From assembly GCA_016203535.1 (NCBI GenBank), contig JACQMO010000015.1, positions 101,295 through 135,252 on the forward strand: DNA of 33,958 nt. The letters are read 5' to 3'. Shown here piece after piece: positions 4,258 through 28,408 of this stretch. Within the stretch, counting starts at the first letter, position 1; each line of letters begins with the position of its first letter. Both the position numbers and the translations under genes were made by a program. The notes below the pieces were generated by a model. That model did no database searches and had not been told where the DNA came from. It saw nothing but the letters and a program-made list of their open reading frames with translations. The stretch comes from Candidatus Uhrbacteria bacterium. GTDB lineage: Bacteria; Patescibacteriota; Patescibacteriia; 2-12-FULL-60-25.

Positions 4258-5226
4258 ATGAAGCTCTTGGTCACCGGGGGCGCCGGGTTCATCGGGACAA
4301 ACTTCGTCTATCACGAGCTGCGGAAGCATCCGGAAGATCGTGTGACGGTCCTCGACGCGCTGACGTATGCCGGCAATCTCGAAAACCTGAAGCCGCTCGA
4401 GCGCGACCCGCGGTTCCGATTCGTCAACGGGGACGTCACCGATCGGGAGCTCGTCGATTCGCTCGTGAAGGACGCGGACGCCGTGGTCCATTTCGCCGCG
4501 GAGTCGCACGTGGACCGGTCGATTATCGACGCCTCCGCATTCGTGCGCACGAACGTCCTCGGCACCCAGACGCTCCTCGATGCCTGCCGCGCGGCCGGGA
4601 ACGTCCGGTTTCATCACATTTCCACGGACGAGGTATTCGGATCCCTCGGCCCGCGCGGCGCGTTCAACGAGGAGACCCGCTATGATCCGCGAAGCCCCTA
4701 TAGCGCGTCGAAGGCGGCGTCCGACCATCTCGTCCGCGCGGCGTGGCATACGCATAAGCTGCCCGTCACGATTTCGAACTGTTCGAACAATTACGGTCCG
4801 TACGCGTTTCCGGAAAAGATCATCCCGCTCTTCATCACGAACCTTCTCGAAGGGAAGAAGGTTCCGCTCTACGGAAACGGGATGAACATCCGCGACTGGA
4901 TTTTCGTCGAGGACCATTGCGCGGGGATCGATCTCGTCCTGCGGAAGGGGAAGTCCGGGGAGACGTACGTGTTCGGAGGTCGGGCGGAACGCTCGAACGC
5001 GGAACTGACGGAGATCCTCCTGTTCGAGATGGGGTTCGGCAAGGAAATGATCCAGCCGGTCACGGATCGGCCCGGACACGACTACCGGTACGCCATCGAT
5101 TACACGAAAGCCGAGCGGACGTTCGGATGGTATCCAGAAACCCCCTTCCTTCACGGGATCCGGAAGACGATCGCGTGGTATCGTGCGAACGAATCGTGGT
5201 GGAAATCGCTGAAGCATAGGACGTAG
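4258..5226 (+). CDS. rfbB: dTDP-glucose 4,6-dehydratase
   Basis: This 322-residue short-chain dehydrogenase converts dTDP-glucose to dTDP-4-keto-6-deoxyglucose using bound NAD, the second step toward dTDP-rhamnose and other deoxysugars. The Rossmann motif TGGAGFIG is at residues 6-13, the catalytic Thr-Asp-Glu triad at 123-125 (STDEVFG), and the YxxxK pair at Tyr148/Lys152. Length is close to the family norm of about 330-350. Its last codons and stop (TAG 5224-5226) are supplied by a heptanucleotide repeat array. The downstream neighbour makes its substrate. No epimerase (rfbC) or reductase (rfbD) is in the window, so the final sugar is unknown. Confidence 0.95.
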   Translation: MKLLVTGGAGFIGTNFVYHELRKHPEDRVTVLDALTYAGNLENLKPLERDPRFRFVNGDVTDRELVDSLVKDADAVVHFAAESHVDRSIIDASAFVRTNVLGTQTLLDACRAAGNVRFHHISTDEVFGSLGPRGAFNEETRYDPRSPYSASKAASDHLVRAAWHTHKLPVTISNCSNNYGPYAFPEKIIPLFITNLLEGKKVPLYGNGMNIRDWIFVEDHCAGIDLVLRKGKSGETYVFGGRAERSNAELTEILLFEMGFGKEMIQPVTDRPGHDYRYAIDYTKAERTFGWYPETPFLHGIRKTIAWYRANESWWKSLKHRT

Positions 5227-5262
5227 GTCGTAGGTTGTAGGTGATCGGAGGGAGATGGTAGG
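5214..5262 (+). repeat. Heptanucleotide repeat array (NNnTAGG units)
   Basis: Seven consecutive 7-nt units can be laid out: gcatagg, acgtagg, tcgtagg, ttgtagg, tgatcgg, agggaga, tggtagg. The first four match a TAGG core well and the rest are degenerate. The array starts inside rfbB, provides its stop codon, and runs to the start region of the next gene. Confidence 0.7.
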
Positions 5263-9909: not shown

Positions 9910-10161
9910 ATGGCAACCAAAACCAAAGAAGAACTAATGCAGGAGATCGAACGGGTCCTGGACACCCTCCGGGAGGGGTTGGCGATGCACGCCGGGAACG
10001 TGGAACTTATCGACATGGACATGGACACCGGGAAGGTTTCCGTCCGCCTGCTGGGGACCTGTGTCGGATGTCCGATGTCCGATCTCACGCTTAAAGCGGG
10101 AATTGAAGACACGCTCATGCAGCTGTTTCCGGAGGTGACGGAAGTGGTTAACGCCCCGTAA
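9910..10161 (+). CDS. NifU C-terminal-domain Fe-S scaffold protein
   Basis: The 83-residue protein is a stand-alone NifU-like domain with the CxxC pair Cys51/Cys54 (LLGTCVGCPMSDLTL), which in NifU/NfuA proteins holds a bridging 4Fe-4S cluster between two subunits. The core ELIDMDMDTGKVSVRLLG fits the family. It probably delivers Fe-S clusters in the cytoplasm. No other Fe-S assembly genes (sufBCD, iscS) are in the window, so it may be the only scaffold locally. The start is fixed by the leaderless promoter just upstream. Confidence 0.88.
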   Translation: MATKTKEELMQEIERVLDTLREGLAMHAGNVELIDMDMDTGKVSVRLLGTCVGCPMSDLTLKAGIEDTLMQLFPEVTEVVNAP

Positions 10162-15887: not shown

Positions 15888-17228
15888 ATGGGATGGAAGG
15901 GGAAAAAGGTCCTGATTTTAGGACTGGGGCAATATCCGAAGGGGAGCGGAATTTCCGCCGCTCTTTTTTTGGCACGTCAGGGCGCGGTTCTCCGCGTGAC
16001 CGACCAAAAATCCGCCGACGACCTAGGGGCGAACGTAACGAGGCTCAAGCGGTTCAAGGGAATTCAATTCATCCTTGGGCGGCATCGCGTCGAAGACATC
16101 CGCTGGGCGGACGTCATCTTGCGGAATCCGCGCGTTCGGCCGAGCTCGCGGGAAATGATCCTCGCGTCCAAATTAGGCAAACGGATTGAGTCCGACATCA
16201 CGTTGTTTTTGGCCGAATGTCCCAGTGCGGTGATCGGCGTGACCGGAACGAGAGGGAAAAGCACCACGTCGGCGCTCGTCGCAGAGATGCTGAAACGTTC
16301 CGGGAAGCGTGTATGGCTGGGAGGGAATATTCTCGTATCGCCGCTCACGTTTCTTTCGAAGGTTCGGCCGACGGACGTCGTCGTCCTTGAACTATCGAGT
16401 TGGCAGCTTGAGACGACGGGGGCGCGCGGCCGTTCTCCACGCTATGCGCTCATCACGAATCTGATGCGCGATCATTTGAACACCTACGAGGGGATGGAAG
16501 AGTACGCGGAAGCGAAGGCGCAGATTTTTCGCCACCAACGTCCAAACGACGTCGTCGTGTTGAATGCGGACGACGCGTACGGTCGTCGGTGGGCCAAGGA
16601 AGCGCCGGGGCAGGTGATTCTGTTCAGCAAAAAATCGAAATTTCCGGTTCCGAAAAAACTGTCGAAACTCATGGGACATCACAATGAGATGAACATTATC
16701 GCCGCTTCGCGCATCGCGTGCGCGGCCGGAGCGACGCAAAACGGCATTCGGTCCGCGATAAAGAATTTCAAAGGACTGCCGGATCGCCTCGAGACCGTGG
16801 CCGTAAAGCGCGGGATCCGCTTTATCAACGACACGACCGCAACGACGCCGGATGCGACAATGGCGGCAATACTGGCGCAAGAAGCAGGAAGCAAGAAGCA
16901 GGAAGCAAGGCGAATACACCTGTTATTCGGCGGCGCGGATAAGAAGCTGGAGTTTGACGACGTCGCGAATCTTCTCAAACGAAAAAAGGTTTGCAGCTCC
17001 GTGTTCGAAGGGACTGCGCGAAAAAAAATCGAGCGCGCGTTCAAAAAAGCCCGATACGCATGGACGGTCGTTAAATCAATGACGGAAGCTGTCCAGTTTC
17101 ACCGCGAGCATGCCAAAAAAGGGGAGATCATCCTCCTCTCTCCCGGCTGCGCCAGCTTCGGTATGTTCGCAAACGAGTTTGATCGGGGTCAGCAGTTTCG
17201 GAAGATCGTCCGCCTCTTGCCCGATTAG
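15888..17228 (+). CDS. murD: UDP-N-acetylmuramoyl-L-alanine--D-glutamate ligase
   Basis: The 446-residue Mur ligase adds D-Glu to UDP-MurNAc-L-Ala in the cytoplasm. The ATP-binding loop GVTGTRGKSTT is at residues 117-127. A central HHNEMNIIAA and the C-terminal ligand-binding INDTTATTPDATMAAI and LLFGGADKKLEFDD segments match MurD. Between these two C-terminal segments a repeat-derived peptide, about residues 331-341 (EAGSKKQEARR), is inserted. AAGGGGAG upstream of ATG 15888 is one of the few Shine-Dalgarno sequences in the window. Its stop codon TAG (17226-17228) lies inside the CIRCE operator of the next operon. It is separated from mraY-ftsW-murG by the tRNA and two glycosyltransferases. 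Confidence 0.94.
   Translation: MGWKGKKVLILGLGQYPKGSGISAALFLARQGAVLRVTDQKSADDLGANVTRLKRFKGIQFILGRHRVEDIRWADVILRNPRVRPSSREMILASKLGKRIESDITLFLAECPSAVIGVTGTRGKSTTSALVAEMLKRSGKRVWLGGNILVSPLTFLSKVRPTDVVVLELSSWQLETTGARGRSPRYALITNLMRDHLNTYEGMEEYAEAKAQIFRHQRPNDVVVLNADDAYGRRWAKEAPGQVILFSKKSKFPVPKKLSKLMGHHNEMNIIAASRIACAAGATQNGIRSAIKNFKGLPDRLETVAVKRGIRFINDTTATTPDATMAAILAQEAGSKKQEARRIHLLFGGADKKLEFDDVANLLKRKKVCSSVFEGTARKKIERAFKKARYAWTVVKSMTEAVQFHREHAKKGEIILLSPGCASFGMFANEFDRGQQFRKIVRLLPD
16877..16909 (+). repeat. Heptanucleotide repeat inside murD (GCARGAA units)
   Basis: A 14-nt unit (gcaagaagcaggaa) is present twice plus 5 nt of a third copy; each 14-mer is itself two near-identical 7-mers. The total of 33 nt equals 11 codons, so the murD frame is kept. 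Confidence 0.85.
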
Positions 17229-18426: not shown

Positions 18427-20325
18427 ATGCCAAAAATTCTCGGAATCGATCTTGGTACCACGAACTCCTGCATGGCCGTCGTCGAAGGCGGTCAGCCGAA
18501 AGTGATTGAAAATGCGGAAGGAAACCGCACGACCCCGTCCGTCGTTGCGACCGCGAAGACGGGGGAACGCCTTGTCGGACAGATCGCCAAGCGCCAGGCC
18601 GTCGTGAATCCCACGAACACGCTGTTTTCGGTGAAACGCCTCATCGGGCGCCGCTGGAATGATCCGGAAGTCCAGCGCGACACCAAATGGCTGCCGTACA
18701 AATTGGTGCAAAAAGGCGACGGCGTTCGCGTGGTGATGAACGAAAAGGAATATGCGCCGGAAGAAATTTCCGCCATGGTTCTCCAAAAACTCAAGGCAGA
18801 CGCGGAAGCCCGCATCGGCGAGAAGATCACGGAAGCCGTGATCACCGTTCCGGCGTATTTCGACGACTCCCAGCGGCAGGCGACTAAGGGCGCGGGCGAA
18901 ATCGCCGGGCTCACGGTGAAACGCATCATCAACGAACCGACGGCCGCGGCGCTTGCCTATGGGTTTGACCGGAAGAAGGATGAGAAGATCGCGGTATACG
19001 ATCTCGGCGGCGGGACGTTTGACGTGTCCGTGCTTGAAATCGCATTCGACGCGACAACGAATCAGAACACCGTTGAGGTGCGCGCCACGAACGGAGACAC
19101 GCATCTGGGTGGCGACGACTTTGACCAGCTGCTCATCGGGTGGGTTGTGGATGAATTCAGGAAGCAGGAGGGGATCGATCTCTCGAAAGACTCGCTCGCG
19201 GTCCAGCGGATCAAGGAGGCGGCAGAAAAGGCGAAGATCGAGTTGTCGAGCGCCGTCGAAACGGAAATCAACCAACCGTTCATCACGAGCGACGCCAACG
19301 GGCCGAAGCATCTCCTCCTGAAGCTCACCCGAGCGAAGATGGAAGAATTGGTGACGCCGCTTGTCGAGAAGACCCTCGAGCCCTGCAAGAAGGCGCTCGC
19401 GGACGCCGGGATGAAGACCTCGGACATCAACGAAATCATCCTCGTCGGAGGGATGACCCGGATGCCGCTCGTCCAGCAGACGGTGGAAAAGTTTTTTGGA
19501 AAAAAACCGAACGTGACCGTGAACCCCGACGAGGTGGTCGCGATCGGCGCTGCGGTCCAGGCAGGGAACTTGCAGGGCGACATCAAGGGTGAACTTCTCC
19601 TTCTGGACGTCACGCCGCTGTCCTTCGGATTGGAAACACTTGGCGGCGTCATGACCAAGCTAATCGAACGTAACACGACCGTTCCGACATCGAAGTCGCA
19701 GATCTTCTCGACCGCTGCCGACGGCCAAACGTCCGTGGAAATCCACGTTCTGCAAGGCGAGCGCGAGATGGCGGAAGGAAACCGCTCGCTCGGACGATTC
19801 ACCCTTTCCGGCATCCCGACGGCTCCGCGCGGAGTCCCGCAAGTCGAGGTGACGTTCGACATCGATGCGAACGGGATCCTGTCGGTGAAAGCAAAGGACA
19901 AAGCCACGGGGAAGGAGCAACAGATCACGATTACCGCATCGACGAACTTGTCGAAGGACGAAGTAGAGAAGATGAAGAAAGATGCGGAGATGCACGCCGC
20001 GGACGACAAGAAACGTCACGAACTGGTCGAAACGCGCAACATGGCCGAATCGATGGCGTACACGAGTGAAAAAATGCTGAAGGACGCGGGTGACAAGGTT
20101 TCGGCCGACGATAAAAAGCCGGTCGAGGAAAAAATCGCGGCGCTCCGCGCACTCAAAGACAGCGAAGACGTCGAGGCGATCAAAAAAGCGGCGGATGAAC
20201 TCGCGACCGCCGCGCAGAAAGTCGGGGCCGCGATGTATGAGAAAGAGAAGCAGGAAGCAGGGAGCACGGAGCAAGGGGGTGCGGAGACAGCGGGGGATGC
20301 GCCGAAGGCTGACGAGCCAAAATAG
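18427..20325 (+). CDS. dnaK: Chaperone DnaK (Hsp70)
   Basis: The 632-residue protein is a complete Hsp70: phosphate loop [17 protein letters not shown] near the N-terminus, [17 protein letters not shown], the second phosphate motif [17 protein letters not shown], the linker [14 protein letters not shown], a beta-sandwich substrate domain and a helical lid. It refolds proteins with DnaJ and GrpE encoded in the same operon. The last 25 or so residues ([11 protein letters not shown] onward) come from a heptanucleotide repeat and its flank rather than from the usual Gly-rich tail, and lack the classical EEV-like end. ATG 18427 has no Shine-Dalgarno. Confidence 0.98.
20247..20274 (+). repeat. Heptanucleotide repeat at the dnaK 3' end (GRAGCAN units)
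   Basis: Four consecutive 7-nt units: gaagcag, gaagcag, ggagcac, ggagcaa. The motif is close to the units in murD. It is coding and adds KQEAGSTEQ to the DnaK tail, where extra residues are easily tolerated. Confidence 0.75.
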
Positions 20326-24140: not shown

Positions 24141-25646
24141 ATGAACGGACGCAACTCGCGTGTGGCGATCGCGGTCACGACGCTCAATGCGTTCGTGATT
24201 TTCGCAAGCTGTGACGATGGATCCATGGGTCCCGGAACAACATCCTGCCCGATGACCTGCAAGGATGCCGGGTACGATCACGCCGTCGAGGAGACGGGAT
24301 CGTCCGGAAGCTCCGAATCCGGCATCGGTGGAGCCGGATCGGGCAGCGGTGGTTCCTCGGAATCGGGTGCCTCGGGCGCAGGCGCCGGCAGTCAGGATGC
24401 CGGCGCGGACGTCGTTGACGGATGTCTGTGCGAAGCGGGTCCCGGCGGCTCGGGCGGCTCGTCCAACGGAGGCGCCGGCGGCCAAGGCGGCGCCGGGGAT
24501 ACGGGCGGAAGCGGAGGAACCGGCGGCGGGGCGGGTGATGCCAGCGTAGGTGGCTCCGGTGGAGCCGGCGGCGCAGGCGGATCCGGAGGTCAAGGCGGTG
24601 GCGGGGCAGTATGCCCCACGTGGGCGAGCAGCTCTGCCTTCACGTGCGGATCCTGGACCGAGGAATCGGCGCCGGGGACGTTCACACTCCTGTACGGCGT
24701 TTGGGGATCCTCCGCCACGGACATCTTCGTGGTCGGCGGCGACTATACCGTCGGCCGCATCGCGTATTCCTCCGGCTCCGGTTGGACGGAAATGTCGGGG
24801 GTGCCGGACTCGAAGATCCTGTACGACATCACGGGGTTCGCCTCGAACAACGTGTACGCCGTCGGGCGCGGTTCGACCGGTGTCTACGACGGGATCCTTT
24901 TTCACTACAACGGCACGACCTGGTCGAAGGTGGCGGGGACGCCGTCGGTCAGCGGGATCTACGGCGGTCACTACCAGGCGATCTGGGGAACGGGGTCGAA
25001 CAACCTCTACATCCTCGGATATAACGGCGACGAGAACGACGCCAACAAGAAGCAGAATGTCGTGTTCCACTGGAACGGCTCCGCGTGGACGGACATGGCG
25101 CTGCCGTCGGTCATGCCGCGAACCTGGCCCGCCGACATCTGGGGTTACGGAAACGAGCTCTGGGTGGTGGGCGTCGTCTTCGACGCGAGCGACAACGGCG
25201 ATGGCGTCCTGTACCACTTCGACGGGAGCGTCTGGACGGTCTCGCAGCCATCCGAATTCGCGGGACCAACGGGAGCGATCCAAAGCGTCCACGGAACGGA
25301 TGCATGTCACGTGGTGTTGTGCGGATACCGCGACGACAGCGGGACGTTCAAGGGGTCGGTTCTTCGATGGGACGGGACGGCATGGAACCCGTTCACGAAG
25401 AGCGCAACGGTGTGCTATTCGGCCGTGACGTCCGGACCGCACGCGACGATGTTCCTCGCCCCGGGAGCGAACAATAACGGAGTCGTCGGCTTGTCCGACG
25501 GAATGGACGGCTTCACGCTGGGCAATTCGCCCGCAATCAGCACGTCCGCGCCCCGTTCGATGTTCCGTCTTCAAGGGACAAATACCCACTACCTCGTGGG
25601 TGACGGTTCCGGAGACGTGAAGATCTCCCATGCCGACTGCCAGTGA
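24141..25646 (+). CDS. Gly-rich lipoprotein with beta-propeller-like repeats, myxobacterial style
   Basis: The 501-residue protein has a lipoprotein signal peptide ending in FASC (Cys24), then a short Cys-containing stretch. A low-complexity Gly/Ser/Ala linker follows from about residue 55 to 155. About five repeats of roughly 45-50 residues come next, with the pattern IWG-x-YxVG-x-GxxxHxxGxxW (for example VWGSSATDIFVVGGD and FHYNGTTWSKV). Such repeats fold as beta-propellers; the whole architecture is common in Myxococcota lipoproteins. ATG 24141 has a strong GGAGGAG just upstream, unusual here. A role at the cell surface is likely but unspecified. It may have been acquired horizontally. Confidence 0.8.
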   Translation: MNGRNSRVAIAVTTLNAFVIFASCDDGSMGPGTTSCPMTCKDAGYDHAVEETGSSGSSESGIGGAGSGSGGSSESGASGAGAGSQDAGADVVDGCLCEAGPGGSGGSSNGGAGGQGGAGDTGGSGGTGGGAGDASVGGSGGAGGAGGSGGQGGGGAVCPTWASSSAFTCGSWTEESAPGTFTLLYGVWGSSATDIFVVGGDYTVGRIAYSSGSGWTEMSGVPDSKILYDITGFASNNVYAVGRGSTGVYDGILFHYNGTTWSKVAGTPSVSGIYGGHYQAIWGTGSNNLYILGYNGDENDANKKQNVVFHWNGSAWTDMALPSVMPRTWPADIWGYGNELWVVGVVFDASDNGDGVLYHFDGSVWTVSQPSEFAGPTGAIQSVHGTDACHVVLCGYRDDSGTFKGSVLRWDGTAWNPFTKSATVCYSAVTSGPHATMFLAPGANNNGVVGLSDGMDGFTLGNSPAISTSAPRSMFRLQGTNTHYLVGDGSGDVKISHADCQ

Positions 25647-26995: not shown

Positions 26996-28408
26996 ATGTT
27001 GAAGCTTTGGAATACTTCCAGCCGGACAATTGAAGAGTTCCAGCCGATCGCGTCGAAGCGGATCGGGATGTACGCGTGCGGGCCGACCGTTTACCAGCGG
27101 GCGCACATCGGCAATTTTCGCGCGTATGTCTTTGAAGACATCCTTCGGCGCGTCCTTGAGCGCGAGGGATACGGCGTGACGCACGTCGTTAATATCACGG
27201 ACGTCGGACATCTCGTCGGGGACGTGGATGAAGGCGTAGACAAGGTCGAACAGGCCGCGCGTTCCGCCGGTAAAACCGCGTGGGACATCGCGCGGGAGTT
27301 TGCGGATCTGTTTCTCGTGGACCTGAAGCGGCTGGGGATCGAGTTGCCGACGAGGATGCCGAAGGCGACGGACAACATCCCGGAGCAGATCGCGCTGATC
27401 CAGGAGCTGGAGCGAAAAGGGTTTACGTATACGACGAGTGACGGCGTCTATTTTGACACGTCGAAATTTCCAGAATACGGATCGTTCTCCGGCCAACCGC
27501 TTGAGGAAAAGGAGGAGGGAGCGCGGGTCATAACGAACCTCGAAAAACGGAACTCGACGGATTTTGCCCTGTGGAAATTTTCACATCCAAACGGAAGATC
27601 CTTCGACTCCGCTCAGGATGACATACAGACGAAACGTCAGATGGAATGGGACAGCCCGTGGGGCGTCGGGTTTCCCGGATGGCATATCGAATGCTCCGCC
27701 ATGTCGAGGAAGGAGCTCGGACAGCCGTTCGACATCCATGCCGGTGGCGTTGATCACATTTCGGTCCACCATGAGAATGAAATTGCGCAAAGCGTCGCGG
27801 CTTATGGCGCGCCCCTCGCGCGATACTGGTTTCACGTCGAATTCCTGCTCGTCGACGGGCAGAAGATGTCAAAATCCCTCGGAAACACGTACACGCTCGA
27901 GGATCTGGAGAAAAAAGGGTTCGATCCGCTTTCGTACAGGTATTTCCTTCTCGGCGCGCACTACCGGCAAAAGCAGAATTTTACCTGGGAGGCGTTGAGC
28001 GCGGCGAAACAGGCGCTCACGAAACTCCGTCACGCGGTTCGAGGATGGGACGAGCCGAAGACGGGCTGCGCGGATTTGGAAGCCGAATTTTTCTCCGCGC
28101 TGCATGCCGACCTGAACACACCTCAAGCTTTGGCCGTTCTCTGGAAAACGGTGGATTCCGAAGTTCCGACGTCCGCAAAAGCGGAGACGGTCCGAATGAT
28201 GGACCACATCCTTGGTCTCGGCCTCTCGGGGATCATCGCCAAGCCGATTCCCGTCCCGGACGCCATCAGGTCTCTCCTTGACGCCCGTGCATCCGCCCGC
28301 GAACAGAAAAACTGGTCTGAATCAGACCAGCTTCGCGACGAGATGGTGTCGCTCGGATGGAACGTCGAAGATACGTCGGACGGCCAACGTCCGCATCCGG
28401 CCGATTAA
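26996..28408 (+). CDS. cysS: Cysteinyl-tRNA synthetase with repeat-derived insertion
   Basis: The 470-residue class I synthetase charges tRNA-Cys. Motifs: YACGPTVYQRAHIGN (HIGH-type H37-N40), KMSKS at 290-294, and zinc ligands Cys28, Cys233, His258 and Glu262 (spacing 25 and 4 as in the family). Between ALWKFS and KRQMEWDSPWG a segment of about 15 residues (PNGRSFDSAQDDIQT, 198-212) is inserted; its DNA is a widespread intergenic repeat. The fold should tolerate it because it lies in a loop before the zinc-binding part. ATG 26990 is also in frame, but the promoter spacing favours 26996 (MLKLWN). The stop shares TTAA with the convergent corA stop. Confidence 0.95.
   Translation: MLKLWNTSSRTIEEFQPIASKRIGMYACGPTVYQRAHIGNFRAYVFEDILRRVLEREGYGVTHVVNITDVGHLVGDVDEGVDKVEQAARSAGKTAWDIAREFADLFLVDLKRLGIELPTRMPKATDNIPEQIALIQELERKGFTYTTSDGVYFDTSKFPEYGSFSGQPLEEKEEGARVITNLEKRNSTDFALWKFSHPNGRSFDSAQDDIQTKRQMEWDSPWGVGFPGWHIECSAMSRKELGQPFDIHAGGVDHISVHHENEIAQSVAAYGAPLARYWFHVEFLLVDGQKMSKSLGNTYTLEDLEKKGFDPLSYRYFLLGAHYRQKQNFTWEALSAAKQALTKLRHAVRGWDEPKTGCADLEAEFFSALHADLNTPQALAVLWKTVDSEVPTSAKAETVRMMDHILGLGLSGIIAKPIPVPDAIRSLLDARASAREQKNWSESDQLRDEMVSLGWNVEDTSDGQRPHPAD
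27595..27624 (+). repeat. Dispersed repeat element inside cysS
   Basis: The core ccttcgactccgctcaggat plus gaca corresponds to a short repeat seen between genes in many bacterial assemblies, which yields the spurious peptides SFDSAQDD, VILSGVEGS and CHPERSRRI in its frames. All three appear here in the six frames. It is in frame in cysS. Confidence 0.75.

Follow-up and report, generated by a model that had tools for sequence, protein, structure and literature searches.

Long palindromic repeats can be kept in frame in housekeeping genes, as the Rickettsia palindromic elements show, where they occupy surface sites. Heptameric simple sequence repeats were over-represented in bacteria in a 2007 survey cited in PMC4692102, which also cites the idea of a polymerase footprint for such repeats. 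The GGGNATC repeats of Xanthomonas and Nostoc are heptamer units with a preference for four units that is tied to G-quadruplexes (PMC4692102). TAACTGA direct repeats occur in marine Beggiatoaceae, cyanobacteria and Bacteroidetes (PMC4679880).

Selection should remove indel-prone repeats from essential genes when their unit length is not divisible by three, yet the small genome studied here has them in about two dozen genes. The window, the whole stretch of 33,958 nt that was analysed, covers bases 101295-135252 of contig C30 in the genome (G000) of a Candidatus Uhrbacteria bacterium, which comprises 811 kb in 30 contigs and is 88% complete. Relatives are denoted below by their own G numbers.

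The heptamer array in murD

The protein encoded at 15888-17228 is MurD. It contains the middle and C-terminal Mur ligase domains (Pfam Mur_ligase_M, 1e-30; Mur_ligase_C, 2e-12), it matches the MurD structure 3lk7 by PDB sequence comparison (2e-47), and it has the MurD fold as shown by Foldseek (TM 0.85-0.87 to the E. coli and P. aeruginosa MurD structures). The features of the window are as follows.

15888-17228, + strand: murD, 446 aa, open reading frame intact (Pfam, PDB sequence match, fold)
16877-16909, + strand: heptamer array in murD, GCAAGAAGCAGGAAGCAAGAAGCAGGAAGCAAG, 4.7 copies of GAAGCAR with no mismatch at period 14, MurD residues 330-341 (AQEAGSKKQEAR)
16878-16909, + strand: alternative reading of this array, five CAAG/CAGG words of 4 nt with four AAG spacers between them, 32 nt
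16848-16928, + strand: MurD helix 321-333, loop 334-342 and strand 343-347 (AlphaFold model)
20247-20273, + strand: second copy of the murD repeat family, in frame, in the DnaK C-terminal tail
5217-5242, + strand: TAGGTNG heptamer array of another family, extending over the stop codon of gene 4258-5226
10062-10083, + strand: TGTCCGA heptamer array within a short predicted ORF (9910-10161)

The first-pass annotation had reported a heptamer repeat in frame inside murD at 16877-16909, made of a 14-nt unit repeated 2.4 times, and both statements were confirmed: the repeat by the sequence, TRF and the ORF, and the unit by TRF, which returned 2.4 copies at period 14 (100% match, score 66) and 4.7 copies at period 7 (84%). 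The array fits the form of five words and four spacers with one extra matching base in front, and its 32 nt is the length at which arrays of its family pile up in the length histogram. It had also been placed in a loop between conserved segments, which is supported by alignment and by the AlphaFold model (mean pLDDT 91.8). The repeat falls in a helix-to-strand loop that is the least confident stretch of the model, with the minimum at residues 331-340 (mean 60). In Rossmann-type folds the catalytic residues sit on the strand-to-helix side, and helix-to-strand loops point the opposite way; by this topology, loop 334-342 probably points away from the active site.

MurD was found in most family genomes, and we aligned it with 29 relatives and with three more added later, giving 32 orthologues. 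The loop peptide occurs in none of the 32. Because no aligned relative carries it, the reading in which relatives conserve the same peptide with non-repetitive DNA falls away, and the murD repeat is lineage-specific rather than ordinary conserved sequence. The segment after TPDATxAAL is variable in length across the 29 relatives. Between AAL and IHL this MurD has 14 residues (AAI-LAQEAGSKKQEARR-IHL), compared to 9 in the three closest relatives (AAL-KALTPVAKK-IHL; 57-60% identity). The repeat had been thought to add about 11 residues; the alignment therefore reduces the net gain to about five, with about six older residues overwritten, as judged against genus-level relatives of 50-63% identity, and with loop alignments at 50-60% identity that may be off by a few residues. 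The assembly of the single congener, where a same-genus empty site was sought, has no murD, and the congener's contig begins inside dnaK. In one relative (G016, locus L032) the MurD reading frame is broken in two near residue 388, with no repeat at the break, which suggests a frameshift or an assembly error.

Heptamer arrays in the genome and in relatives

The whole assembly was scanned as stretches, with an array defined by a register score ≥18 and ten shuffled genomes as the control. This gave 46 arrays, compared to a mean of 0.7 per shuffled genome. With 0-1 such arrays in each shuffled genome, the murD array is confirmed as real and not a product of chance. TRF found 54 period-7 arrays (1 in a shuffled genome) and 9 of period 8 (7 in a shuffled genome), and in this genome it found 2 of period 6 and 9 of period 10.

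By gene calls from a dicodon model made for this analysis, 25 of the 46 arrays are wholly within predicted genes, 15 are intergenic and 6 lie at edges. As the sequence is 89% coding, arrays are still about threefold enriched outside genes; an alternative count from the TRF list gave 31 in genes, 23 between genes and 9 at edges. The description of the repeat as otherwise intergenic is not supported: over half of the 46 arrays are inside genes, as are 7 of the approximately 11 genomic copies of the murD unit (NAGCARG). Hosts of in-frame arrays on the TRF list, identified by Pfam, were PheT (two arrays), the NAD-dependent DNA ligase LigA, DnaG, RecJ, a second Mur ligase, UppP/BacA, Lgt, TsaD, TruB, glycosyltransferases, a P-type ATPase and others, and the host called LysS is a class II (D/K/N) tRNA synthetase. 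The arrays of DnaG, TsaD and LysS were detected by TRF and are outside the set of 46, and the essentiality of host genes is taken from other bacteria. Those of PheT (the first), LigA, RecJ and LysS lie between or after Pfam domains; those of DnaG, UppP, Lgt and TsaD lie within a domain. The window also has tandem repeats of 21 and 9 nt (24313-24352 and 24556-24586), both multiples of three, in a predicted glycine- and serine-rich protein (24252-25646).

Units are shared between sites. Among 36 arrays there were 30 identical pairs, compared to 1.0 expected from random genome heptamers and a maximum of 5 in 200 draws. The exact three-unit pattern AGCARGNAGCARGNAGCARG had 12 matches in this genome (six sites), and its reversed control had none; the pattern itself was absent from the single congener and present in only 3 of the 40 other family genomes. 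The NAGCARG repeats are thus a lineage-specific expansion. GAAGCAR arrays of four units were also found in at least 114 stretches from many phyla, and those in other phyla, picked at ≥4 units, ranged from 30 to 298 nt. In viral contigs, however, a permuted heptamer was commoner than GAAGCAR (84 vs 23), with another permutation at 7, so the broad occurrence of GAAGCAR singles out no special unit. We therefore rejected a horizontally mobile unit specific to GAAGCAR.

Array length is concentrated at 31-32 nt. Across this genome and pieces of ten relatives, 42 of 169 arrays spanned 31-32 nt and 8 spanned 33-36 nt, although these pooled counts are not a random sample because some pieces were chosen for genes known to carry arrays. 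The pile-up was visible in G031 alone (starts of 20 contigs; 25 of 104 at 31-32 nt). In this genome alone lengths were more spread (9 of 46 at 31-32 nt) and none exceeded 33 nt. Selection had been proposed to have fixed a total of 33 nt in murD; this does not follow, as intergenic arrays are likewise 31-33 nt and the frame requires no more than that the net change (+15 nt) be divisible by three. Several arrays can be divided into five words of 4 nt parted by four spacers of 3 nt, a form taken from the sequences by eye and not by statistics. The common 32-nt phase AAGTC...AAAAGT recurs at three loci (C11, C28 and C29), and the PheT genes of G001 and G024 have 32-nt arrays of other words.

The same loops have been used more than once. 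In the MurD loop, two other genera have heptamer arrays of their own (five copies of CAGSTTR in G006, CAAACAG and ACGTTGG arrays in G026), and G028 has a palindrome with a 10-nt repeat. PheT loop 212-227 has AAAAGTC here, AATTTCC in G001 and AAATTCC in G003, and a CysS loop, which holds an SFDSAQDD element here, has a weak heptamer array in G003. A period-7 signal was absent from the orthologous array sites of UppP (G001, G022, G004), LigA (G001, G024), DnaG (G003, G001) and the second PheT array (G001). Relatives have their own in-frame arrays, of other units, elsewhere in the same genes (PheT, L389, L390, L391, L392 and L395; DnaG, L419; CysS, L353). The SFDSAQDD-type repeat of CysS lies in frame at 27598-27622 of the window (ATCCTTCGACTCCGCTCAGGATGAC) and is lacking from the congener's CysS; two more diverged copies in this genome (C16 and C17) are both outside genes. 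The papers listed by a literature search on the SFDSAQDD peptide and similar strings were all unrelated.

Coding arrays are biased in strand. GAAGCAR arrays are free of stops in all frames on both strands, and all seven coding copies of the murD unit are read in the hydrophilic KKQEARS-type sense, even though the antisense is also open (sign test, 1/128). Overall, 3 of 25 coding arrays have a stop in any frame of the coding strand, compared to 12 of 25 on the opposite strand. AAAAGCC, another unit free of stops on either strand, encodes FGFWLLVF in the P-type ATPase.

Origin and persistence of the murD array

What makes arrays of about 32 nt from 7-nt units in the first place? We consider it likely that the murD repeat belongs to a lineage-specific population of short dispersed heptamer arrays (about 4.5 units, about 32 nt) and that it is a passenger, tolerated in a free loop, whose peptide has no specific function. 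A NAGCARG array would have arisen in, or been copied into, the alpha-to-beta surface loop 334-342 of MurD, where it would have replaced about six residues for a net +15 nt. It may have persisted because this net change is a multiple of three, because any reading frame of a heptamer array yields one and the same cyclic heptapeptide and GAAGCAR is stop-free on both strands, because the sense-strand peptide (KKQEARS) is hydrophilic and charged, and because indels are tolerated in this loop, which by its helix-to-strand position probably lies opposite the catalytic side.

The arrays themselves may have formed by the copying of ready-made arrays together with polymerase slippage. For the copying step we regard the case as evenly balanced. 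Simple slippage fails to explain how arrays entered their sites, because it predicts changes in multiples of 7 nt, while the net changes relative to relatives are about +15 nt in MurD, +6 in LigA, +30 in DnaG and 0 in both UppP and the second PheT site. Copying of ready-made arrays would account for the sharing of units between sites. The main competitor is generation in place, by slippage on a chance 7-nt seed and with no copying between sites, which we hold to be possible though the less probable account. The preference of this genome for period 7 over 6, 8 and 10, the arrays formed by permuted heptamers in viral contigs, and the over-representation of heptamers that PMC4692102 reports for many bacteria are all consistent with it, but it leaves unit sharing far above chance, the sharp pile-up in length (42 of 169 at 31-32 nt, then 8 at 33-36 nt) and the zero net change at two coding sites without an explanation. 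A stronger version of copying treats the arrays as a defined class of 32-nt element, built of five words of 4 nt alternating with four spacers of 3 nt, in which word and spacer pairs differ by lineage and an unspecified cellular process patches ready-made copies over existing sequence, so that the loops of core enzymes are repeatedly rewritten; this we regard as speculative and rather unlikely.

Spread by a mobile element of known type, based on a reverse transcriptase or on a REP/Y1 transposase, would fit the identical units at unrelated sites. It would also fit G031, where an inverted partner lies within 120 nt of 28 of the 79 arrays, compared to 3 at random places. Neither RVT_1 nor Y1_Tnp was matched in the array-bearing genomes G000 (this genome, 88% complete), G031, G012 and G011, however, while G030, which has both, has no TRF period-7 arrays in 100 kb; and in the first search of the genome against itself the other copies matched over 26-31 nt of the array only, with flanks not shared. 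We rejected these enzymes as drivers and consider such an element improbable. In G031 the arrays are often hairpin arms with recurring cores, for example GAGTT...AACTC and GCAGTT...AACTGC (L476, L479, L480 and L482). Hairpin arms were rejected as a general feature of arrays, with inverted partners at only 2 of 36 in this genome.

The remaining explanations concern murD itself, and each seems very unlikely. Tandem heptamers can slip, and a single 7-nt change shifts the frame, so the array could be a contingency locus that switches MurD on and off or varies its length. But MurD, as a core enzyme of wall synthesis, is a poor target for phase variation, slippage is reduced in an array of only 4.7 units whose copies differ at one position (A/G), and similar arrays lie in PheT, LigA and DnaG, which are also normally essential. 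The peptide could instead be adaptive, perhaps as a site at which a partner protein docks, as it is charged and the loop is exposed in the AlphaFold model; against this, the same type of peptide occurs in the unrelated LigA, RecJ, LysS and DnaK tail, and unrelated sequences occupy the MurD loop in other genera. Least probable of all is ordinary protein sequence with a chance codon pattern. The loop does vary widely in length and sequence across relatives, but chance would have to produce the excess of arrays over shuffled genomes, a unit found at about 11 sites and a peptide seen in none of the 32 relatives.

Comparison with described repeats

Arrays occur here in genes for enzymes of replication, tRNA charging and the cell wall, and in relatives different units have again hit the same loops. 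They make a source of new protein loops directly visible and provide a natural map of the loops that tolerate foreign peptides. Like the Rickettsia palindromic elements, the arrays are in-frame repeats at surface sites, but those elements are far longer than the tandem heptamers described here (18-33 nt). With phase-variable (contingency) loci they share short tandem repeats in coding sequence; they differ in lacking a long perfect tract and a typical surface gene, and core enzymes are among the genes hit.

The heptameric simple sequence repeats of PMC4692102 are similar in that tandem 7-nt units are distributed across the chromosome and arrays of about four units are preferred. This genome shows the same excess of tandem 7-nt units, and the 31-32 nt pile-up in family relatives, weaker in this genome alone, corresponds to the preference for about four units. 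In PMC4692102, however, the repeats are G-rich and over-represented in non-coding DNA, whereas here more than half of the arrays are in genes, in frame. The units (GAAGCAR, AAAAGTC, AACCTAC and others) do not have the tract of three or more G that characterizes the GGGNATC quadruplex repeats, and a length preference is seen nonetheless. The TAACTGA repeats (PMC4679880) are likewise short heptamer arrays, patchy across distant lineages and with no evident means of spread, and reading frame and stop content are discussed there as limits on their location. They consist of one unit, are mainly intergenic and have stops in one orientation, in contrast to the many units found here, many of them in frame in core enzymes. 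A literature search for heptamer repeats with Patescibacteria returned no paper, and in the open literature searched there was no account of a single genome with in-frame heptamer arrays in many of its core genes. Thus, the over-abundance of heptamers in bacteria is already known, while their dense in-frame invasion of housekeeping genes, their preferred length and their reuse of the same loops are the features for which we found no earlier description.
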